Source: Desulfovibrio sp. Fe33
Lineage (GTDB): Bacteria; Desulfobacterota; Desulfovibrionia; Desulfovibrionales; Desulfovibrionaceae
Assembly (NCBI RefSeq): GCF_028532725.1
Contig: NZ_JAQKGU010000003.1
Coordinates: forward strand, 1 to 64,000
Reading direction: 5' to 3'
Length of the DNA: 64,000 bases
The stretch's first letter is position 1. Each line of letters begins with the position of its first letter. This document shows positions 9,262 to 56,859 of this stretch, piece after piece. Under the pieces are notes generated by a model, which searched no databases, was not told the origin of the DNA, and worked only from the letters and a program-made list of their open reading frames with translations. A program made the translations under genes and the position numbers.

Positions 9262-9402
9262 GCATGAGGCGTCCCGGTTTCTCCCTGCGCCCGATGCCGG
9301 TCTCGTCCTGTTGTTGCCGTCGAAGCGTCCAAGGCTCGGAAGGCGTTTAATTTCCTCTTATATTACAAAGGGGCGACTGGCCTCTTGATTAATTGGCCGG
9401 AC

Positions 9403-9419
9403 ACGGGTACGAAGCCCGT
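9403..9419 (+). promoter_or_regulatory. Hairpin leader of gpt; candidate purine/xanthine-sensing element
   Basis: A perfect 5-bp stem (ACGGG at 9403-9407, CCCGT at 9415-9419) encloses the loop TACGAAG. It lies in a 190-bp leader, 17-48 bases before the gpt start, and is followed by CATTCCCACACCGCGC and then the gpt ribosome site. Its compact form next to a ribosome site, ahead of a xanthine/guanine salvage operon, suggests a translational riboswitch such as the NMT1 (xanthine) class. I cannot confirm the consensus from memory, so the ligand assignment is inference. Confidence 0.35.
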
Positions 9420-9450
9420 CATTCCCACACCGCGCAAGGAGTTTATCCGC

Positions 9451-9933
9451 ATGGCAGACAAGAGCCGATATCAGAAGATGTTTCCCGTTTCCTGGGAGCA
9501 ACTGCACCGCGACTGCCGGGCGCTTTCCTGGCGGCTGGTGGAAAGGGGGCCGTGGAAGGGCATCCTGGCCATCACGCGCGGCGGGTTGGTTCCTGCCGCC
9601 ATTATCGCCCGTGAGCTGGATATTCACCTCATCGATACCATCTGCCTGTCCTCCTACAATTGGAAGAACCAGGGTGAGGCCAATATCCTGAAGGCAGTGG
9701 ATTGCGACGGGGAGGGCTGGCTGCTCATCGACGACCTGGTGGATACCGGCAAGACGGCCAAGATCGCCCGCGACATGGTGCCCAAAGCGCATTTCGCCAC
9801 GGTTTACGCCAAGCCGGAGGGCCGCCCCACGGTGGATACCTTCATCACCGAGGTCAGCCAGGACACCTGGATACTGTTTCCGTGGGACGCCGGATCACAA
9901 TTCGTGGAACCTATCGTCCAGGTTACCGAATAG
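9451..9933 (+). CDS. gpt: Xanthine(-guanine) phosphoribosyltransferase
   Basis: The 160-residue cytoplasmic enzyme starts at 9451 after AAGGAG; a longer frame from 9385 runs through the leader hairpin and is unlikely. The PRPP-binding motif [12 protein letters not shown], the N-terminal ITRGGLVPA loop and the C-terminal WILFPWD match Gpt. It joins xanthine or guanine (and weakly hypoxanthine) to PRPP to make XMP or GMP. It directly precedes a BMP-type purine/nucleoside ABC importer, which supports a purine salvage role. Confidence 0.92.
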
Positions 9934-48391: not shown

Positions 48392-48424
48392 CAAAAAAAG
48401 GGTTACGGAAAATCCGTAACCCCT
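48392..48424 (-). terminator. Displaced original tRNA-Ser terminator
   Basis: Read on the minus strand this is GGGGTTACGGA-TTT-TCCGTAACCC followed by seven T. It abuts the left att repeat, so it was probably the terminator of tRNA-Ser before island insertion. Confidence 0.75.
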
Positions 48425-48451
48425 TGAAATATGGCGGAGAGGGTGGGATTC
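48425..48451 (-). repeat. Left attachment repeat (outer attL)
   Basis: This 27-bp sequence (TGAAATATGGCGGAGAGGGT then GGGATTC) is identical to the tRNA-Ser 3' end at 56757-56783. It is the duplicated core created by integration. Confidence 0.9.
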
Positions 48452-48542
48452 CAGAAGTTGAACCTTCAAACCCTGTTATCATTGATATTTTTGTCTTCGT
48501 TTTCTGGCTCTGGTGTAGCAGTCTGGTGTGGCAGTTGGCAAG

Positions 48543-49250
48543 TTAATCATTTGAGGCTTCGTTGATAAGTCGACTTGCCTGTAGGAGTTCCTCATAGTCA
48601 TCGTATTTCTCACAGGTTACCAGCATGTCACCATTAGCTTGAAGCCCGGTTGCACTCAATCCGGGGAACTCATGATTGGATGTTTTGATTCCCCACGCAC
48701 ATCCCGCATAGATGGTATTGTAGAATGTGTGACCTTCAATATATGCCCATTTGGGAAAGGTCATCACCCTTTTCACTACTGTTCGGTCTTCCTTGATTAA
48801 AGCAGCAGGGACAATGTGATACTTGTCGCTATCGGTTTGCTCCAAAAGCATCAGCCGAATTCTTTCCTGATGGGGGCCAAGGTCAATATGTCTGAATGTT
48901 GGTAGGGAACTAATTCCAACTCGGTAAAGGATGCTTAGGTGGTAGAGCTTAAACCGAAGATATTCGATCCCTGTAAGGGTGATATCCTCGTCAGGAATTG
49001 AGTCAGGTAGTGCGTTGGCGTTGAGCCAATATCGAGCGAAATAGTCTTCATATTTACGGCTTAGGAGTTGTTCGCAGTCATGGCAAAACAACCGTTCCCA
49101 TAAACCTTTCTGACGCACGTCGCGTGCGCCTTGAGTCGTGTAGGCATAGTATCGGTGGTTTGAATCAACTACCAAACGATACAAGTGGTTAGGGTAGATA
49201 TGTGATTCCCTAAGAGGAGCCTCAGTCTGGCAGAGTTTGCATACTGGCAT
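48543..49250 (-). CDS. Putative HNH-like zinc-binding endonuclease (island cargo)
   Basis: The protein has 235 residues from ATG 49250, which follows GAGGAAGAG; an upstream ATG at 49313 lacks a site. It starts with CKLCQTEAPLRESHIYPNHLYR and has a second pair CHDCEQLLSRKYEDYFARYWL. A CxxC, SHI-(x)-P and CxxCE arrangement resembles HNH-type nucleases that are restriction-like or defence cargo, but I cannot name the family. The rest (about residues 90-235) is mixed alpha/beta with no motif. It is alone in the inner part of the island. Confidence 0.6.
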   Translation of the reverse strand: MPVCKLCQTEAPLRESHIYPNHLYRLVVDSNHRYYAYTTQGARDVRQKGLWERLFCHDCEQLLSRKYEDYFARYWLNANALPDSIPDEDITLTGIEYLRFKLYHLSILYRVGISSLPTFRHIDLGPHQERIRLMLLEQTDSDKYHIVPAALIKEDRTVVKRVMTFPKWAYIEGHTFYNTIYAGCAWGIKTSNHEFPGLSATGLQANGDMLVTCEKYDDYEELLQASRLINEASND

Positions 49251-49483
49251 CTCTTCCTCGAATTGGAGGGACGGGAGGTTTCCCCTTCCAGGTTGAAGAT
49301 TAAACTCAGCCATACAAAAACAGATACACCCTAAGACATAAATACACAAAGAGAAAGCCCGTCCAGCAAGGTAGGCGGGCCGGGCATTTGCGGACGCCGT
49401 AAGGCATTCTGACTGTCGATTCGACCCTTGGCTAGGACGACCGGCCAGGACGCGTCAGAGGCGAAATTTGGAAGCCGTTTTGG

Positions 49484-49660
49484 CTACCCCTTGATGATCC
49501 GGTAAAGAGTCTGGCGGCTAATACCGAACTCTGCTGCCAACGCCTTCTTTTCCTCTTCCTGACCACTGCGTCGCCTGATCTCGTTCATCTGTTCCTTGGA
49601 GAGTTTTGCCGTCCGTCCACAGTACTTGCCCCCTGGCCTATGCCTTGGCGATTCCTTCAC
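49484..49660 (-). pseudogene. C-terminal fragment of a serine recombinase (resolvase/invertase)
   Basis: Read on the minus strand from a GTG at 49660 this gives HRPGGKYCGRTAKLSKEQMN, then EIRRRSGQEEEKKALAAEFG and ISRQTLYRIIKG-stop, the HTH_7 DNA-binding tail of resolvases. An in-frame stop lies just upstream and the catalytic N-terminal domain is missing. It is a remnant of a recombinase that may have belonged to an earlier island. Confidence 0.7.
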
Positions 49661-49766
49661 GCTGCGGATTTATACAAATTCCCGTTTGAATTGTGCGATC
49701 ACTTAATAGGACGCAAAGTTCAAAGGTCTTCTCCTGGTTGTTTGCATCTTTTCTCTAAAAAACAGA

Positions 49767-49799
49767 AAAAAGGGGTTGCGGGAATATGCCGTAACCCCT
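49767..49799 (-). terminator. Second displaced tRNA-type terminator
   Basis: On the minus strand GGGGTTACGGC-ATATTC-CCGCAACCCC followed by T residues. It abuts the degenerate att copy, just as the first terminator abuts attL. Confidence 0.6.
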
Positions 49800-49817
49800 T
49801 GAAATATGGCGAGGGTG
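49800..49817 (-). repeat. Degenerate internal attachment copy
   Basis: TGAAATATGGCG is identical to the 5' part of the att core; then GAG is missing and AGGGTG follows before divergence. The same terminator-plus-att arrangement as the outer site suggests a second integration point. An open frame running through here (49720-50037, minus) is not a real gene. Confidence 0.6.
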
Positions 49818-50044
49818 TCTGTGTGATTTTATATCTATCTGGCTGTAGTTGTTTGAGATAAAAAATCACATTTTTTTGTTGCCCCCAAAGTTGCCCCCAG
49901 AAAGGTGGCGGTGTGAGGATGGCGGAGAGTGTCCTATTCGGCAAATCATAACGAACAAAAGCACCCTTATTTTTTCGCGTTACTGAAACCAAAACTTCCA
50001 CCGACGGTCTACCGCTATGCAACCCTAGACTTTTCACCGCCCCC

Positions 50045-50500
50045 CTATGCCACCGCCGCCTTATACTCCCGCTCCATCTGTCGGGCGTAGTGCCGCAAAA
50101 AGTGATAGGTCGCGTACTCGGCCCATGCCCTGGACTGTGCGAAATGAAAGGTCGCCCGGTATCGGGACATGAACGAATAGGCCGTCTGTGTCGCCGCCTT
50201 GGGTTTCATGCGGCTCCGATAGTTCCCGGCCACGATATCAGAGAATGGGGCCTCTACGACTACCATGAAGGCATCCAGTCCCCTGGCCCTGGTCAACTCC
50301 CGCTCGAAGCGTTCCCGGCCCGTAGAGATGGACTGTACGAAGTCGGCCAGGCTTTTGCGCTCAACGGCCACCCGGCTTTCCAATCCAGCAAGCGAGTAGT
50401 CGCCAGTTGAAAGAGTGCCCTCGATCACGGCTACGCCCTCATACTTGTCGCCCTCGAAGTGGAAGGGCGATTGCTCCCGGCTGTCTCGGATGATCTTCAT
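50045..50500 (-). CDS. ERCC4-domain nuclease (island)
   Basis: The 151-residue protein has the ERCC4/XPF-type nuclease layout: IRDSREQSPF, STGDYSLAG and the catalytic VERKSLADFVQSI (ERK at 47-49), which coordinate metal. Related small proteins occur in phages and integrative elements. It overlaps the upstream small zinc gene by 4 bases (ATGA), so they are translated together. It probably cuts branched or flap DNA during element replication or excision. Confidence 0.83.
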   Translation of the reverse strand: MKIIRDSREQSPFHFEGDKYEGVAVIEGTLSTGDYSLAGLESRVAVERKSLADFVQSISTGRERFERELTRARGLDAFMVVVEAPFSDIVAGNYRSRMKPKAATQTAYSFMSRYRATFHFAQSRAWAEYATYHFLRHYARQMEREYKAAVA

Positions 50501-50805
50501 TTACCGGCCCTCCTCGGCTTCACAAACCTGGCGGGTAGGTCAGTCCTCGGCGTAAACGTCTGCACCCTCCATGAAGGGCAACCGGACCGCTTCCCGCAAC
50601 TCTCACACGCTTGACCCCGGTAGACCCAATGGCCGCCATGAAGAGGGCAAGGGGCCAGGTGCGGATATGCGGCCATCTCAATTTCACTTTCATGAAACCC
50701 CTGCACAATATCCACAATAGGGGCCTCTATCGGAGGTATTGTGGATATTGTGCATGTATTCTTAGTCTGTGAGTTTTGATTCAGCCACCTGTCGGAGAAT
50801 CCCAT
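50497..50805 (-). CDS. Small zinc-finger protein (island)
   Basis: The 102-residue protein starts at ATG 50805 (MGFSDRWLNQ), just overlapping the primase stop. Its C-terminal part has CPLHGGHWVYRGQACESCGK and then GC in KRSGCPSW, a likely zinc knuckle; the N-terminal half is low-complexity and Thr/Ile-rich. It sits between the primase and the ERCC4 nuclease, suggesting a replication accessory role. No family is recognised. Confidence 0.6.
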   Translation of the reverse strand: MGFSDRWLNQNSQTKNTCTISTIPPIEAPIVDIVQGFHESEIEMAAYPHLAPCPLHGGHWVYRGQACESCGKRSGCPSWRVQTFTPRTDLPARFVKPRRAGK

Positions 50806-50806
50806 T

Positions 50807-53194
50807 TTATGATCTCCTGGCCTTGGGGTTGACCGCATAAGGTTGGCTTTTGTGTTGCTTTGGCAGCTTGATAATCAGCCCATACTCTTCCAGAACATCC
50901 AGGCCGGGGCTAACCTCTTTCATAGTGGGGAACGTCCCTCGGACTCTTTTCAATGCGTCACGCCCTGTGAATCGCTCCACGCCGTCACGATCTAGCCAAC
51001 CCCATATTTTCTTAGCACACTCGGTCCGAGGATCGACGCCCATGAGGTCAAGGGCTGCCTTGGCATGTTCCACCAATATGGATGCAAGGTTGGTTGCTGC
51101 CAACATCACATCTTTTCCAATTTTGAGGTCCCAAGGGCGTTCACAATATGCGCAATGGAAAAGGCCAGCTAACCGCACTGCCTGGCCGGGGAGCTTTCCC
51201 GCCCAATCGGTCATATCTGCGAACTCTCCACCGGGGCCGAGTTCTTCCTCAACAGCCTTGTTGAAGTCCTCCCATACGTTTAACGCTTCGGGGGTCAGGT
51301 GGATCAGGTGGTGGGTATCCTGGCCGTCATCGCCCATACGGGCGGGGAGGTCCAAGAGTTCCCTTATCAAGCGGTTGTACTCGGCCTCTATCGTCTGTGA
51401 TACGGCTCGGGTTTGCCCCCTGCTTCCAAGCAGGCTCTTGGGCAGCCAGAACAGCATACGGCCTACCAACCCACGCCCGCGCATGACGCTGTTTTCGCCG
51501 AGGACCGTTATAACGCTCGGCTGCGGACAAAGAGCAAGGGTCAACGTCGGTGACTCCAACACGATTGGATCACGCCCGCGTCGGTCAACATGGACAGCCT
51601 CTTGCCCCCACGCCTTCAACACAAGGTCTAGGTTGGCAACGCCCTTGGAATAGCGGCCCGCCAAGGTGTCAAGTATCCCCCCCTCAGCTTCGATAATGGC
51701 GATTCGTCCTCCCTGCGGTTCCATGATCTCGGCCATGGCCTCCGGGGTTACATCGTCGGCAAGTAAACGGGGGATAGTTGGGACTTCCGGCAATTCGGCT
51801 TCAAGTTGTCGGACTTCATCTAAGACGGCCCTGCGGTCCTCGTTAGTCTTTGCACTGGCGATCTTCTTCCGCTTGGCGTTGATGGCCTGTTCCAGTGTAG
51901 CTCTTTCGGACTTGGCCGTTCGCACAGCATCCACCATTTCGGTCCTGCGCTCTTTCTCCCATTGGACAAGAGGCCGTTTGAATATCTCCACCACACCGCT
52001 TTTTCTTTGACCGGGAGGAAGCGCACAACACTGAAATAGGTTCAGTGGCTCGGAGTAGCCCGGCTTGACTTGGACGCGGGCCTTGCCTTGTACGGCTGTC
52101 GCAACGGCAGAGAGGGCGGCTGTCAGGGACAATTCAAGCGGCACCTGTAGGGCCTCGGCCACGTCCTGACAGATATGGGCCAGGGGACCGGGGATCATAT
52201 CAGCTTGAAGCTGAGGCAACACCACGTCGTCTAGATGGACGGGCGCGGGGTAATCCTCCTCGCTCGGCTTTTGGTCCTCGATGGGCTGAGGTCCATTGCA
52301 CCGGGCCAATTGCTCCCGCACAGCATCCAGCCCCGCCAATTGGTGAAGGTCGTTGAAGTCGGACAGGTCGGGGCGATCTTCAAAGAGGGGGACAACCAAC
52401 TTGCCTCCCACGCCTTGCGCTGCGGCCTCGGCCTTGGTTCTGCCGGGGTTGCCCTTGGTCCTAGCGTCGTTGTCTCCAGCTATGACGATCTCTCGGTCGG
52501 GGTAGGTCTTCCGCGCCAGCTCCGCTACGGGTTTGAGGTTCCCGGCATTGAACGCGCAAAGAACGGTTGCCCCGGTTGCCTCATACACGGAAAGACCTGT
52601 GGCAAGGCCCTCCACGATGAACAACCGGCCATCGTCGCCTTTGATTGGGAAAAAACCACCGGCAACTTGTCCACCAGGAAGGAACAACTTGGAGCCGTCC
52701 GCGTGGATGAATTGAAGCGTCTGCGGCTGCCCGTCTTTGCCGAGGACCGGCACGACCAGGTTGTCATCATCGACACGAAGCCGAGCAACTGCTCTTACTC
52801 CTTTGGCGGTCAGATACGGGTTGCCGTCCTGGGCGTCAGGAAGCCCGTTTAGGGCCTCGACAGCCTTGGCGCGGGCCTCGGCATAGCGGCGGGCCTGTTC
52901 TTTTGTCCTGGCTGCCCTGTCTCGCTCTATCCTGGCCTTGAGGGACTGCCTCTCGGCCTCGGACATTGCGGAACTGTCGCCATCCGTCCAGGTGCCGGAC
53001 TCTCCGGTGCGCCAGTTTTGCCACCAACCGGACGCGGGCTGGTCCAGATGTAGCACATAGGCAGCGTCTTTACCCTGCGGCTTCCCCTGGGTCCCGCAAC
53101 GGTGCAACTCGCCGTCTGCTAGGATTTCGCCGGGGACGATCCCGGCACGGTGAAGCTCGGCCTCAAACGCGGAGATGATATCTTGCGGGGTCAT
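50807..53194 (-). CDS. Toprim-DUF3987 primase/helicase-like protein (island)
   Basis: The 795-residue protein has an N-terminal primase-like segment (GELHRCGTQGKPQGKDAAYV; GWWQNWRTGESGTW), a Toprim domain (about residues 190-270: LFIVEGLATGLSVYEATGAT and IVIAGDNDA) and a long C-terminal DUF3987/YfjI region with ALSAVATAVQGKARVQV. It is the replication protein of the element, priming DNA as in P4-type islands. It overlaps or touches genes on both sides. Confidence 0.85.
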   Translation of the reverse strand: MTPQDIISAFEAELHRAGIVPGEILADGELHRCGTQGKPQGKDAAYVLHLDQPASGWWQNWRTGESGTWTDGDSSAMSEAERQSLKARIERDRAARTKEQARRYAEARAKAVEALNGLPDAQDGNPYLTAKGVRAVARLRVDDDNLVVPVLGKDGQPQTLQFIHADGSKLFLPGGQVAGGFFPIKGDDGRLFIVEGLATGLSVYEATGATVLCAFNAGNLKPVAELARKTYPDREIVIAGDNDARTKGNPGRTKAEAAAQGVGGKLVVPLFEDRPDLSDFNDLHQLAGLDAVREQLARCNGPQPIEDQKPSEEDYPAPVHLDDVVLPQLQADMIPGPLAHICQDVAEALQVPLELSLTAALSAVATAVQGKARVQVKPGYSEPLNLFQCCALPPGQRKSGVVEIFKRPLVQWEKERRTEMVDAVRTAKSERATLEQAINAKRKKIASAKTNEDRRAVLDEVRQLEAELPEVPTIPRLLADDVTPEAMAEIMEPQGGRIAIIEAEGGILDTLAGRYSKGVANLDLVLKAWGQEAVHVDRRGRDPIVLESPTLTLALCPQPSVITVLGENSVMRGRGLVGRMLFWLPKSLLGSRGQTRAVSQTIEAEYNRLIRELLDLPARMGDDGQDTHHLIHLTPEALNVWEDFNKAVEEELGPGGEFADMTDWAGKLPGQAVRLAGLFHCAYCERPWDLKIGKDVMLAATNLASILVEHAKAALDLMGVDPRTECAKKIWGWLDRDGVERFTGRDALKRVRGTFPTMKEVSPGLDVLEEYGLIIKLPKQHKSQPYAVNPKARRS

Positions 53195-53448
53195 GCTGCC
53201 ACCCCCTGTCGGTCTTCGGCCTCCTCAATGTGGACTTGGAGGGCATCCACCATGAGAGAGGTCCGAGCATCCCACGGCCAACCGGCTGCGGCCACACGGT
53301 CAATCATGCGGCTCTGAACTCGGCGGGCGATCCTGGGGGCAGCCTGTTTGACGGATTCAAACGGAAGCGGTATGAATTGGGCAACGGTTTTTCTTTCGCC
53401 CCTCGATGTCTCGGCAGGATTGACGGGGGCTTTTGCTTTGTTCAGCAT
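53191..53448 (-). CDS. Small island protein, 85 residues
   Basis: The start at 53448 overlaps the stop of the AlpA gene (ATGA). It is basic in the middle (RIARRVQSRMIDRVAAAGWPW) with an acidic end. No family is recognised. The overlaps with both neighbours support it as a real gene. Confidence 0.6.
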   Translation of the reverse strand: MLNKAKAPVNPAETSRGERKTVAQFIPLPFESVKQAAPRIARRVQSRMIDRVAAAGWPWDARTSLMVDALQVHIEEAEDRQGVAA

Positions 53449-53672
53449 CAGGCAGCCTCCCCGTCCTTGGGTTCGCGGTTGCGCTCCTCCATCCACTCAC
53501 GGACGGCGGCAACGTCAAAGGCGGTAGTACGCGGTCCGAGTTTTACGGGCTTGGGAAACTGGCCATTTTTAATCCAGCGCCAAATGGTGGGTTCGCTTGC
53601 AGGAATAAAGTTGAGAAGCTGCTTGATCCGCAGGAAGCCGGTGTCAGGGAATACCGGGGTGCCAGATGTCAT
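53448..53672 (-). CDS. AlpA-like excisionase/regulator (island)
   Basis: The 74-residue winged-helix protein contains GFLRIKQLLNFIPASEPTIWR and WIKNGQFPKPVKLGPRTTAF, then VREWMEERN, the classic AlpA/MerR-like pattern of P4-type islands. Such proteins activate or reverse integration and control the replication operon that follows. Confidence 0.87.
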   Translation of the reverse strand: MTSGTPVFPDTGFLRIKQLLNFIPASEPTIWRWIKNGQFPKPVKLGPRTTAFDVAAVREWMEERNREPKDGEAA

Positions 53673-53786
53673 AAAAACCTCCAAATAGTCTGAGCCGTGG
53701 TGAGGCTCGGTTAGACTTTATGGAAGTTAGATAAAAAACAGGTGGTGATTAGGTAAGCGTGGCAGTTTTGACGAACTGGTATCTTG

Positions 53787-54617
53787 TTACCTAAAGGGGA
53801 GTACGTCGCCAGCCTGGATGCACTCGCACGTTCTTGAAAAATGCCGCCGGAAGACAGAATCCTCAGATCCGGCAAATCCAAGAGACTCAAATTGGGGAAG
53901 GTCCCTAAGTCTTCGGCAATGATCAGCCAAGTTATGCTCTCCGGTTACTTCAACCTGATCGTAAAGCCAAATACCAATGGCCCTTGCGCGATTGTGTAGC
54001 CTCTGAATAGGAACGGACGGTGATTCTCGCTTGATAGCGCTCAACACTTCACGCGGGTAGCCCGGTCTGCCGCCATGTAAGGAGTCTTCAAGTTCCTGCC
54101 TCCATTGAGACTCCCCAGAATTGATTCTGGTCATCAGCATGAGGAGGCGGACGGATTCAAGGGCCTCGGCCATATTTCCCGAGACATCAATTCTGATATC
54201 TAGGATTTCCCCCTCTGACTTGATCTGTTCCACCCATGGATTTTGGACCGGCGAAAGTCCTACTCCAAGATTTTCTGGAAATGTTTCTGAGGCTACGGCG
54301 TCTAAAATGTCGGTAGCTTTTTCTTTACAGGTCCAATCAGCCGGGAAAAGGGTTTTTCTTTGTTGGTGACTTTTTCTTGCCTGGTAAAGAGCATCCCGTT
54401 GGGCTGGGGTTAATCCGCCCCACAAATCAAGTGGGGCCAGCGATTCGATTGCCGAGAAAAGAGCGTTTCTCCAATAATCGTCTTCCTCTTCTGGCGTGGC
54501 TTCCACAAAGACATCAATAGCGGCCCATTCTTCATTCTCCAATCTGATGAATTCGGGGTTTCTGGAAACGTATTGCCCCCTCCAAAAAAGGAATTGCTCA
54601 AGCTTATTGTTACTCAC
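53787..54617 (-). CDS. Unknown island cargo protein, 276 residues
   Basis: No motif is recognised. It is acidic, largely helical, with no signal peptide or membrane segments. It begins NNKLEQFLFWRGQYVSRNPE and has a central DIRIDVSGNMAEALESVRLLMLM. It is transcribed with the other island genes but is separated by a 147-bp structured leader from the gene upstream and by 114 bp from AlpA downstream. It is a candidate cargo or defence gene; no function can be assigned. Confidence 0.65.
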   Translation of the reverse strand: MSNNKLEQFLFWRGQYVSRNPEFIRLENEEWAAIDVFVEATPEEEDDYWRNALFSAIESLAPLDLWGGLTPAQRDALYQARKSHQQRKTLFPADWTCKEKATDILDAVASETFPENLGVGLSPVQNPWVEQIKSEGEILDIRIDVSGNMAEALESVRLLMLMTRINSGESQWRQELEDSLHGGRPGYPREVLSAIKRESPSVPIQRLHNRARAIGIWLYDQVEVTGEHNLADHCRRLRDLPQFESLGFAGSEDSVFRRHFSRTCECIQAGDVLPFR

Positions 54618-54651
54618 GCTAGGCCCTCCCGTTAGCCTTCTCCCGTTTGCG

Positions 54652-54718
54652 TCACGCCCAACCCCGGCGGGAGGCCGGGGCTTTCACCTGGGGGAGCTAC
54701 CCCCAAGCTAGGGCGTGA
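54652..54718 (-). ncRNA. Candidate structured RNA: three-way junction upstream of the 276-residue cargo gene
   Basis: On the minus strand UCACGCCC (54718-54711) pairs with GGGCGUGA (54659-54652) as a closing 8-bp helix. Inside are UGGGGG-UAGCU-CCCCCA and CCCCGGC-CUCCC-GCCGGGG hairpins, joined by UAGCU, GGUGAAAG and UU. A further UUCG-capped hairpin (54747-54730) lies upstream, with a G-U pair that would be an A-C mismatch on the other strand, so the minus strand is the likely RNA. I cannot match it to a known class. Confidence 0.6.
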
Positions 54719-54764
54719 AATCTATGCTGCCCCAGCCGAAGCCGGGGGGCGTGTTGTACCGTTG

Positions 54765-54995
54765 CTAGATTTTTTGGACCGGTTCAAGGATATCGGAAAT
54801 CTCGCGGACTTGTCTTGTCGCCAATTCCATTGCGTGAGCCATTCCAAAAACCTCTTCTCCCTTTTCCCGGTCCATCTCACAATCCCCCCGAATTTCAAGG
54901 CTTCCTTCTATAAAACTGAGAAAAGAATGAAGCTTGGAGAGTTCCCTTTGAGCCTCAGCCATACGTTCGCTTTGGGTCAGCAACGACTTATCCAT
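54765..54995 (-). CDS. Small helical island protein B, 76 residues
   Basis: It starts MDKSLLTQSERMAEAQREL and has a second helix with EVFGMAHAMELATRQVREISD. The start overlaps the end of the upstream gene by 8 bases. The second helix resembles VFGSAYMLASLGKRLSDLAC in that neighbour, so the two look like diverged copies. No family is known to me. Confidence 0.6.
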   Translation of the reverse strand: MDKSLLTQSERMAEAQRELSKLHSFLSFIEGSLEIRGDCEMDREKGEEVFGMAHAMELATRQVREISDILEPVQKI

Positions 54996-55278
54996 GAGAT
55001 GCCTCCGCTCGGAGTCTTCTCGGCATGTCGTCAACCTCGCAAGCGAGGTCGGAAAGTCTCTTTCCAAGGGAAGCGAGCATGTAAGCCGAGCCGAACACCT
55101 GACTATAAGACTCATTGCCCGTTCTGTCGCTGATGTTGTCGAGCAATTCACTGATGGCATTGACTGCATGCCCGATCTCTCCAATCTCGTGAGCGTGTTC
55201 GAGACAACTTTGCCTAAGCGCCTTCATAGGAATGCCATTGCCATCAGGGGATGTTCCCGCTACTTTCAGTTCAGCCAT
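54988..55278 (-). CDS. Small helical island protein A, 96 residues
   Basis: It begins MAELKVAGTSPDGNGIPMKA and is helical throughout, with an acidic middle. AGGAGG precedes the start. It overlaps protein B and shares the VFG(S/M)A helix pattern with it. It lies 90 bases from the end of the integrase gene. Function unknown. Confidence 0.6.
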   Translation of the reverse strand: MAELKVAGTSPDGNGIPMKALRQSCLEHAHEIGEIGHAVNAISELLDNISDRTGNESYSQVFGSAYMLASLGKRLSDLACEVDDMPRRLRAEASHG

Positions 55279-55368
55279 GATTCTACCTCCTGTGTAGGGT
55301 TGTGGTCAGGTCCTATCGGGGTGGTTGCAGCACCCCGGCAGGGCCATTTCTTTTGCTCGATATGGGCT

Positions 55369-56589
55369 TTATGCTTGCTTGAAAATCGGCACCACCTTGC
55401 CGTCTGCGTCCTTTTTCAGTTTGTCCAGGAAGTCAGCCCAGCTTTGCATCATCTCGCGGCGCTGGGGCAAATATTGGCTTCGGTTGTATGCCGCTCGAAT
55501 TGCGTTTTTCGGGGTATGGGCCAGTTGCGCCTCGATAACATCCGGTTCCCAGCCCGTTTCGTTCAAGAGGGTGGAGGCCATAGCTCGGAAGCCGTGGGCG
55601 GTCATTTGGTCATTGGTGTATCCGAGATAGCGCAAGGCCGCGTTCAGCGTGTTTGCTGATATGGGTTTGTCGCCACGGTTGCCGGGGAAAAGATACTTGC
55701 CCGATCCGGTCAGGGGGTAGAGATCCGCCAGCACGTCAACGGCTTGCCGGGAGAGCGGGACAAGGTGAGGGCGGCGCATCTTCATCTTTTCGGGGGGAAT
55801 CCTCCAGGTGGGTGTCTTGCCTTCCAGTTCAAACTCGCTCCACTCAGACTTGCGGAGTTCGCCAGGACGCACGAAGAGCAGGGGGGCAAGGCGTAGGGCG
55901 CAGCGGGTTGTGTGTTGGCCGTGATAGCCGTCTATGGCGTTCAACAATGCGCCGACTTCGCGCACGTCGGTTATCGCCGCAAAGTGTTTCTTCTCGGGGG
56001 GAGGGACAGAGCCTTGAAGGTCCCTTGTAGGATCGCGCTCGGCACGGCCTGTAGCGACCGCAAAGCGCATTATCTGGCCAATCTTCTGCATCTGTCGCCG
56101 GGCAGTCTCAGCCGCGCCCCTGGATTCAATGCGACGGATACATGCGAGGATTTCAGGCGGGGTCAACTCCCTGATCGCCCGGTGTCCTAGCCAGGGGAAG
56201 ACGTCTTTTTCAAGACGCTGGATAATGGATTTGCCGTAGGGCTTGGAGAAGGCGTGCTTGTAGCGGTCGAACCACTCCAGGGCGATAGTTTGGAAGGTTT
56301 CACCCTCGGCACGTTCCAGCGCCTTTTCTTCCTGGCGGACCTGAGAGGGGTCCTGGCCGTTGTCCAGTAGCTTGCGGAAGTCGCGGCGCTTGTCGCGGGC
56401 CTCGGACAAACTCACGTCGGGATAGGTGCCGAGAGAGAGCCGCTTCTCCTTGCCCCCAAAACGGTACTTGAGCCGCCACCACTTGCCCCCACGCGGGGAG
56501 ACTTCAAGATATAGTCCTTTCTCATCGAAAAGACGGTAGATTTTCTCTTTCGGCTTGGCGTTCCGGCAGGTCACATCGGTTAACGGCAT
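55369..56589 (-). CDS. int: P4-type tyrosine site-specific integrase
   Basis: The 406-residue protein has the N-terminal DUF4102 arm-binding domain (PLTDVTCRNAKPKEKIYRLF), a core-binding middle, and the catalytic C-terminus with Arg in LLFVRPGELRKSEW, HGFR at 332-335, His358 in AHTP, and Tyr368 in AYNRSQY. It lies 175 bases from tRNA-Ser, whose 3' end is the attachment site. It recombines att sites to integrate and excise the island. Confidence 0.95.
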   Translation of the reverse strand: MPLTDVTCRNAKPKEKIYRLFDEKGLYLEVSPRGGKWWRLKYRFGGKEKRLSLGTYPDVSLSEARDKRRDFRKLLDNGQDPSQVRQEEKALERAEGETFQTIALEWFDRYKHAFSKPYGKSIIQRLEKDVFPWLGHRAIRELTPPEILACIRRIESRGAAETARRQMQKIGQIMRFAVATGRAERDPTRDLQGSVPPPEKKHFAAITDVREVGALLNAIDGYHGQHTTRCALRLAPLLFVRPGELRKSEWSEFELEGKTPTWRIPPEKMKMRRPHLVPLSRQAVDVLADLYPLTGSGKYLFPGNRGDKPISANTLNAALRYLGYTNDQMTAHGFRAMASTLLNETGWEPDVIEAQLAHTPKNAIRAAYNRSQYLPQRREMMQSWADFLDKLKKDADGKVVPIFKQA

Positions 56590-56704
56590 GGGGGCAACTC
56601 CTTGCTACTTGGGGCAACCTTTTTCCATTTGCCCCCATTATTGCCCCCAGTTGCCCCAATATGTCAATAAACCCTATTTTACCTTATGAGACCACCTAGA
56701 AAGC

Positions 56705-56731
56705 AAAAAACCCCGTATTAACGGGGCTTTC
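56705..56731 (-). terminator. Terminator downstream of tRNA-Ser (island-supplied)
   Basis: On the minus strand AAAGCCCCGT-TAAT-ACGGGGTTTTTT. It lies between the integrase and the tRNA, and has replaced the original terminator now at 48392-48424. Confidence 0.8.
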
Positions 56732-56756
56732 TGTATCTCTCAAGACCTCTTGAGGC

Positions 56757-56783
56757 TGAAATATGGCGGAGAGGGTGGGATTC
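56757..56783 (-). repeat. Right attachment repeat (attR inside tRNA-Ser)
   Basis: Identical to the 27-bp repeat at 48425-48451; it covers the encoded CCA end, the acceptor 3' strand and part of the T arm, so integration keeps the tRNA whole. Confidence 0.9.
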
Positions 56784-56859
56784 GAACCCACGTACGAGCT
56801 ATTAACTCGTAACTCGATTTCGAGTCGAGCGCGTTACGGCCGGACTTCGCTACCTCTCC
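56764..56859 (-). tRNA. tRNA-Ser (anticodon CGA)
   Basis: On the minus strand the 96-base gene starts GGAGAGGTAGCGAAG and ends CCTCTCCGCCA, with a 7-bp acceptor stem. The anticodon stem-loop is CTCGA-CTCGAAA-TCGAG, giving anticodon CGA (codon UCG). A long variable arm (GTTACGAG...CTCGTAC region) and GGTTCGAATCC T arm confirm a class II serine tRNA. CCA is encoded. Confidence 0.95.

Follow-up and report, generated by a model that had tools for sequence, protein, structure and literature searches.

A probable stack of unrelated mobile elements and displaced terminators at a tRNA-Ser(CGA) gene of Desulfovibrio sp. Fe33

Tycheposons and other satellites are small elements that target tRNA genes, and some of them lack an integrase. 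Tycheposons are named together with other satellites in PMC11389934; here and below, comparisons with cited papers refer to excerpts of those papers. For integrative and conjugative elements (ICEs) and integrative and mobilizable elements (IMEs), the scenario of cis-mobilizable elements (CIMEs) and accretion is that one element decays and a second one then arrives at an attachment (att) site of which the gene end forms part (PMC5704250). In Dehalococcoides, islands stand in tandem behind one RNA gene, ssrA, bounded by repeats of its 3' end, and those without an integration module are discussed as possible cis-mobilizable elements (PMC3146451). We analyzed a 64,000-nucleotide stretch of Desulfovibrio sp. 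Fe33 (contig NZ_JAQKGU010000003.1, positions 1 to 64,000; hereafter the window), in which an earlier note had described repeats and terminators at a tRNA-Ser gene and explained them by successive islands. Unrelated elements are very probably stacked at this gene, a class-1 newcomer on a class-2 remnant, with terminators pushed outward. Three classes are distinguished, namely the integrase family of the window (class 1), the resolvase family (class 2) and the insertion found in genome G024 (class 3); compared genomes are designated by such G numbers.

The 27-mer TGAAATATGGCGGAGAGGGTGGGATTC occurs at 48425-48451 and at 56757-56783 without a mismatch, as the earlier note had claimed, and covers the tRNA 3' end plus 7 bases beyond it. 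By simple arithmetic, such repeats are expected by chance in 64 kb at an estimated ~1e-7, and an origin by chance was ruled out by the length of the repeat and by the relatives. Another perfect match, the 23-bp sequence CCGTAACCCCTTGAAATATGGCG, is common to 48414-48436 and 49789-49811. Within it only TGAAATATGGCG (7 bp of spacer and 5 bp of tRNA) is att-like, the remainder being a terminator stem present at both sites. The third, degenerate copy that had been placed at 49800 is real, but it is short (49800-49811) and need not be a decayed full repeat. Since the CACCCTC/GCCA junction recurs in G027 beside an unrelated flank, a short hybrid right junction fits the 49800 copy better.

The order of arrival was read from a relative. 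Of 59 relatives searched, G009 matched the tRNA flank best (87%); it is without the class-1 integrase element. There, the tRNA is directly followed by what the window has beyond the 49800 copy, namely terminator, resolvase tail and conserved flank. The cargo gene after this flank is not that of the window, and behind it lie an att-like copy that has 3 mismatches and another terminator. When 49800-56756 was deleted in silico, the window gave a single 1468-bp alignment to G009 (86.4%), with no gap at the junction. This layout and the gap-free junction indicate that an older insertion was already in place when the integrase element came to lie between it and the tRNA. The check that the earlier note had proposed, a search for empty sites in relatives, thus yielded the state before the newcomer, and its view of successive integrations holds for at least two events, the newcomer next to the tRNA having supplied both a tRNA 3' end and a terminator. 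Its count of two probably falls short, as a further event is implied by the 49800 terminator, which is unlike that of the relic family (see below).

The right end of class 1 is alike in four genomes, ending ...CACAYAGACACCCTC or in close variants, and is followed by GCCATATTTCAAGGGG in the window, GCCAGAAAATTAAAAAGCC in G027, TCAAGGGG in G033 and TCAAAAGGGG in G002. The window and G027 have the junction in common and differ in the flank. This would be the outcome if the arm were joined to any sequence that happened to lie behind the tRNA end. The class-1 integrase DNA is 89% identical to that of the window in G033 and 90% in G027, the longest pieces of host flank 80% and 81%, respectively; in G002, the integrase is 82% identical and split by a frame break, against 80% for the host flank. 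A shortened class-1 element with this split integrase gene lies at the same tRNA in G002 (L088), with no match to the class-2 profiles.

On the class-2 side, the resolvase remnant aligns at 55% identity with residues 129-197 of the 200-aa serine resolvase of G016, which is the C-terminal third of that protein, in agreement with the orphan recombinase fragment that had been described. Of the 33 genus genomes examined, which provided 34 loci with two from G024, 15 were matched by profiles of the class-2 ends: 13 at both ends, G030 at the right end only and G001 at the left end only. The 33 genomes are those whose tRNA loci were taken from a genus sample of 36, leaving out G007, G013 and G026; the stretch behind the tRNA is short in G018 (1.5 kb) and in G015 and G029 (2.4-2.6 kb), so class-2 ends may be missed there. 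The left profile consists of resolvase sequence, a hairpin and GGGTGTATCTGT, of which only the last part is found in G004, G015, G024, G034 and G035, and the right profile reads TTGCCAACTGCCACACCAGACTGCTACACCAG...ATCAATGATAACA...att, with variation. In G016, the gene next to the tRNA encodes a DUF6538 tyrosine integrase, and a serine resolvase gene of full length precedes a cargo slot; G032 has a 14.7-kb class-2 element at tRNA-Ser(GGA), bounded by 21-bp repeats, with integrase, resolvase and Type I restriction; G001 has integrase and resolvase without a right-end match; and in G061, which belongs to the same family but a different genus, a slot remnant lies at tRNA-Ser(CGA). Like-oriented arm repeats stand at both ends in G016, G020 and G032, and the window remnant matches the class-2 right end only.

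The stretch 48425-49800 is bounded by att repeats, the 27-bp copy at 48425 and the short copy at 49800, as its counterpart in G009 is by the tRNA end and the copy with 3 mismatches. Neither an integrase nor transfer genes are among its recognized contents, which are a resolvase tail and a single cargo gene, and G016 and G032, which keep the integrase, the full-length resolvase and the same right end, point to derivation by deletion. We thus regard the 1.4-kb remnant as CIME-like, with putative att sites. The proposal that it is the relic of an earlier element stands in this respect, but its integrase family differs from that of the younger element. Two further loci touch on class 2. In G016 (L146, ~9375-9540, reversed locus), a 166-bp "solo" scar consisting of terminator, one arm and att lies between two cargo cassettes, as would be left by recombination between arms; this locus has four tRNA-end copies, the tRNA included. 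Elsewhere in the genome of the window (L270, contig C3 174500-190000), a DUF6538-integrase/serine-resolvase unit with a PDC-S36-type gene stands directly behind tmRNA; its integrase is 26% identical to that of G001, and it has no right-end match.

The slot between the class-2 ends has variable contents, among which we counted clear defense-type matches over the slot genes scanned. It holds a C5-methylase and a BglII-type endonuclease in G016, a BsuBI/PstI-type restriction fusion in G015, Vsr with a methylase fragment and a PDC-S36/HNH gene in G020, AbiJ/Abi_C in G027, AbiTii in G029, Type I restriction in G032 and PDC-S36 in the tmRNA unit. Weak matches were PD-T4-7-like (G034, 3.7e-7), RmrA-like (G009, 0.0055), Csx28-like (third gene of G020, 0.0085) and nSTAND-like in G023, under the Pfam cut-off and with cargo common to G033. 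No PADLOC match was obtained for the slots of the window, G004, G023, G035 and G001, for the second cassette of G016 or, at 1e-4, for G061; by other families, the G004 gene is Pfam MauJ, and G035 has an SH3 domain and the same cargo as G024. When 19 slot proteins were compared all against all, only G023/G033, G004/G029 and G024/G035 paired, plus the methylases of G015 and G016. G188, with Type I restriction beside an integrase, was not counted as class 2, as it has no end-profile match and a different gene order.

The window occupant had been called a lone HNH-like gene. It is present, as one occupant of this variable slot, but the HNH label was not confirmed, and the predicted structure (mean pLDDT 37.4) is too poor to use. 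The protein carries a CxxC...SHIxPxH...CxxC motif, and its PHROG matches are to families without an assigned function (phrog_19960, 3.6e-21); it gave no Pfam match at E<=0.1, a single irrelevant weak match in NCBIfam (0.0078) and none at E<=1 in a profile search against PDB sequences.

We find the arguments evenly balanced on whether class 2 is an undescribed family of mobile defense islands, a reading that takes several features jointly. Such islands would have a DUF6538 integrase at the tRNA end, a resolvase beside a single slot for restriction, Abi-type or unknown systems, ACTGCTACACCAG-type arms as ends and, usually, an element-borne terminator. Their targets would be tRNA-Ser(CGA), tRNA-Ser(GGA) and, for a related element, tmRNA; recombination of like-oriented arms would produce slot remnants and "solo" scars, and a swappable defense cassette would stay fixed beside the tRNA. 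If this is true, unknown cargo genes, including the CxxC/SHIxPxH gene of the window, become new anti-phage candidates. The defined slot is a place to seek new anti-phage genes.

Between the window and G009, the slot flanks are 84% and 81% identical, near the 84-88% of the host flanks, whereas the cargo gives no alignment. As the resolvase is broken in both and the cargo differs, homologous recombination in the flanks would be the simplest reading of the exchange. An exchange of class-2 cargo in which the neighboring serine resolvase acts on the conserved boundary, in place of homologous recombination between conserved flanks or whole-element turnover, is in our view unlikely. The left boundary is indeed sharp, ending in the same base region in most of 16 copies behind resolvase sequence, but the right boundary is a different sequence, the arm repeats, which leaves the resolvase no matching pair of sites. 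Moreover, the boundary is unmatched in G032 or at tmRNA, and different cargo beside a broken resolvase in the window and G009 favors homologous exchange or exchange with another element.

We then compared the terminators. In the sense of the tRNA, a hairpin with a T-run is found beyond 56757 (AGAAAGCCCCGTTAATACGGGGTTTTT, -15.8 kcal/mol), at the 49800 copy (AAGGGGTTACGGCATATTCCCGCAACCCCTT, -14.7 kcal/mol) and at 48425 (AAGGGGTTACGGATTTTCCGTAACCCTTT, -18.5 kcal/mol). A different strong terminator had been claimed for every copy; each copy has one, but those at 49800 and 48425 resemble each other, and the one beyond 56757 is unlike both. By one fixed rule, a terminator lies within 60 nt at 29 of 34 tRNA ends (33 from tRNA genes, 1 from the displaced piece in G024), at 11 of 12 displaced att copies and at 19 of 600 random positions, the latter drawn from all these loci without matching for intergenic location. 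The 12 copies exclude those less than 200 nt from the locus end (G015, G029), those with at least 2 mismatches or an indel (the outer copy of G009, one in G016, and G030), short class-1 junctions and loci added later. Between genomes the stems vary widely, but members of one element type have similar ones: for class 1, CCCCGT..(4)..ACGGGG (window, G002), CCCCGTAACCACGGGG (G027) and the variant CCCGCAAATGCGGG (G033); for class 2, CCCCTGT...CAGGGG (G016, G020, G029). The inner terminator (49770-49800) is not of the class-2 type, which implies at least one further event; it resembles AGGGGTTAC-type stems of G010, G024, G017 and G028, some of this type being followed by ATGCAAA-like repeats. With low confidence, it may be the trace of a third event, whether element-borne or host.

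A 55-kb insertion in G024 (L097/L152) lies at tRNA-Ser between the tRNA and its former terminator; by eye, its large ORFs look phage-like. G035 (L153) is a clean empty site for it, 96.8% and 99.3% identical on the two sides, and keeps at the tRNA the terminator displaced in G024; the terminator was thus replaced on insertion. Integrases that target tRNA genes are known to use different sublocations within them. The displaced tRNA piece measures ~66 bp in G024, 20-22 bp in class 2 and ~12 bp in class 1, so that the three classes would seem to have separate crossover points within the tRNA gene.

We hold it very unlikely that the terminators are host-derived hairpins of independent origin that do not belong to the attP of the elements. 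The terminators behind tRNA-Ser are very diverse, many genomes without recognized class-2 ends have one, the insertions at the tRNA in G001, G027 and G030 have none in front, and none is visible at a related integrase locus in G047 (L268), all as this explanation would have it. Nevertheless, a similar terminator stands between att and integrase in four class-1 members; class-2 members G016, G020 and G029 have like terminators and G032 a variant stem; one terminator is replaced by another on insertion of foreign DNA in the G024/G035 pair; and class-2-type terminators stand behind displaced copies in G016, G020 and G030. That 48425-56783 is instead one element within the 27-bp repeat, with a chance or internal copy at 49800 and the resolvase tail and HNH-like gene as cargo, is extremely improbable and was rejected: although the repeat bounds the entire stretch exactly and the class-1 and class-2 parts adjoin in the same order in the window, G033 and G027, the inner part occurs without the integrase part in G009, class 1 occurs without a class-2 profile match in G002, class 2 has its own integrase in G016 and G032, and arms and terminators differ between the classes.

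Several results weigh against the stack as we describe it. No terminator lies within 60 nt behind the tRNA in G001, G004, G011, G027 and G030, of which G001, G027 and G030 have an insertion there; 1 of the 12 displaced copies (G004) has none; and the original terminator of the host cannot be told from the others. The class-1 right junction varies, with CACCCTCTC followed directly by AAGGGG or AAAAGGGG, not CACCCTCGCCA, in G033/G002, so the class-1 crossover point is not fixed. The left boundary of the slot is unmatched in the G032 element and the tmRNA element, where the resolvase part alone matches, and the window cargo gene has no match in the PADLOC defense library at E<=0.01. Neither an excised circle nor attP was found, and scans of viral contigs were empty: the class-2 right-arm pattern had 0 matches, and the primase had 4 pattern matches, 0 of them confirmed.

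Together, we propose the following history for the stack. The 3' end of tRNA-Ser(CGA) would be a landing site common to unrelated families of tyrosine integrases. An ancient integration of a class-2 element with DUF6538 integrase, serine resolvase, variable cargo and ACTGCTACACCAG-type arms would have been followed by loss of the left part of this element, so that resolvase tail, cargo slot and right att persisted as a CIME-like remnant, which was probably already present in the ancestor common to the window and G009. The 7-kb AlpA/primase class-1 element integrated later, between the tRNA and the remnant. Incoming elements would rebuild the CCA end of the tRNA and, as a rule with exceptions, put their own terminator between tRNA and element, the previous one being pushed outward. 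Of this history, the layering, the order of the layers, the empty site, the variability of the cargo and the presence of terminators at nearly all copies are observed. The elements may still be mobile and, by analogy with accretion-type mobilization, the composite could be excised jointly. At this one tRNA gene, successive integrations can be read like strata, and relatives preserve intermediate states; the locus also suggests a little-noticed rule, that elements at a tRNA 3' end tend to replace the tRNA end and the terminator. The newly brought terminator could prevent transcription of the tRNA from running on into the integrase gene, which has the same orientation. As for the earlier note, its observation of repeats and terminators at tRNA-Ser is confirmed, and its interpretation as a whole is partly supported.

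The features of the locus are listed in Table 1. The class-1 element encodes a tyrosine integrase, AlpA, a Toprim/DUF3987 primase and an ERCC4 nuclease, all on the minus strand. It has the integrase and tRNA-derived att sites of an ICE or IME; no relaxase or conjugation genes were found among the 9 proteins of 50045-56589 in Pfam and PHROGs scans, origin-of-transfer sequences not being sought. It also has the integrase, AlpA-type regulator and replication module of a phage satellite (PICI, P4-like or cfPICI), and no capsid, packaging or packaging-interference genes were recognized among the 9 window proteins by the same scans. The class-1 element of G027 (integrase 95% identical) contains an HK97-type phage capsid gene (L087:6926-8113), which suggests that some class-1 members are satellites making their own capsid. 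A perfect 18-bp inverted repeat, TGCACAATATCCACAATA, with a 17-nt gap lies at 50702-50754, inside the ORF 50497-50838 of the window, and is a possible origin or operator. In phage records, the primase was matched in part by 667, none across 80% of its length, and the best 80 of 305 loci from a scan of genome contigs with the class-1 integrase were 51-59% identical and belonged to other bacteria.

Table 1. Features of the tRNA-Ser(CGA) locus, in window positions
Feature	Position	Strand	Remark
Outermost terminator, displaced from tRNA	48397..48425	minus	
Outer putative att copy, right end of class-2 remnant	48425..48451	minus	same as 56757-56783
Conserved right arm of class 2, ACTGCTACACCAG-type repeats ... 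ATCAATGATAACA, plus att	48433..48541	minus	
Cargo gene, CxxC/SHIxPxH/CxxC protein, 268 aa	48543..49349	minus	ATG start probably near 49312
Conserved left boundary of cargo slot, hairpin and GGGTGTATCTGT	49316..49421	minus	nhmmer profile and boundary listing
C-terminal serine resolvase remnant, catalytic part missing	49486..49699	minus	
Inner terminator	49770..49800	minus	counterpart directly behind tRNA in G009
Putative attR of class 1, element arm ...GACACCCTC joined to pre-existing GCCATATTTCA	49800..49817	minus	
Putative arm sites, right end, two GGGGGCAA	49879..49898	minus	presumed role
ERCC4-type nuclease	50045..50500	minus	present in G033 and G027 too
Primase-helicase-like replication protein (Toprim_3 and DUF3987)	50807..53194	minus	
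AlpA/excisionase-type regulator	53448..53684	minus	Pfam PF05930 E=9e-13
276-aa gene without family match	53787..54617	minus	other ORF (227 aa) at same place in G027
Small ORF without family match	54988..55278	minus	
Tyrosine integrase, 406 aa (Arm-DNA-bind_3, Phage_int_M, Phage_integrase)	55369..56589	minus	
Putative integrase arm sites, left end, GGGGCAA-type direct repeats	56629..56657	minus	presumed role; motif also inside coding sequence
Terminator borne by class-1 element	56706..56732	minus	related hairpins in G033, G027, G002
Putative attL, tRNA 3' end, 27 bp	56757..56783	minus	same as 48425-48451
tRNA-Ser, anticodon CGA, integration target	56764..56859	minus	ARAGORN

To our knowledge, the layout of slot and resolvase is not a feature of tycheposons and other such satellites. 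The excerpts of the literature searched contained no description of a DUF6538/resolvase/slot element or of systematic terminator replacement. Class 1 resembles the I55-type tmRNA islands of Pseudomonas in its end-proximal tyrosine integrase, its AlpA, the lack of transfer genes of its own and the targeting of an RNA-gene 3' end (PMC12595487). I55 has another target, AlpA at the far end and defense genes that include type II restriction, whereas class 1 has a primase and an ERCC4 nuclease and no recognized defense gene among the proteins scanned. The ssrA islands of Dehalococcoides share with our locus the tandem arrangement, the repeats of an RNA-gene 3' end and integrase-less members, but they have one serine-recombinase integration module and many dehalogenase genes, unlike the tyrosine integrases of several families and the often restriction or abortive-infection cargo found here (PMC3146451); the word "terminator" is absent from the main text of that paper. 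Compared with the CIME/accretion scenario of PMC5704250, the two layers of the window belong to unrelated integrase families and have no recognized conjugation genes, the cargo of the remnant type varies between species, and terminators are replaced. The stack is a real one made by a known process, decay plus tandem accretion, and the element family inside it is possibly undescribed.

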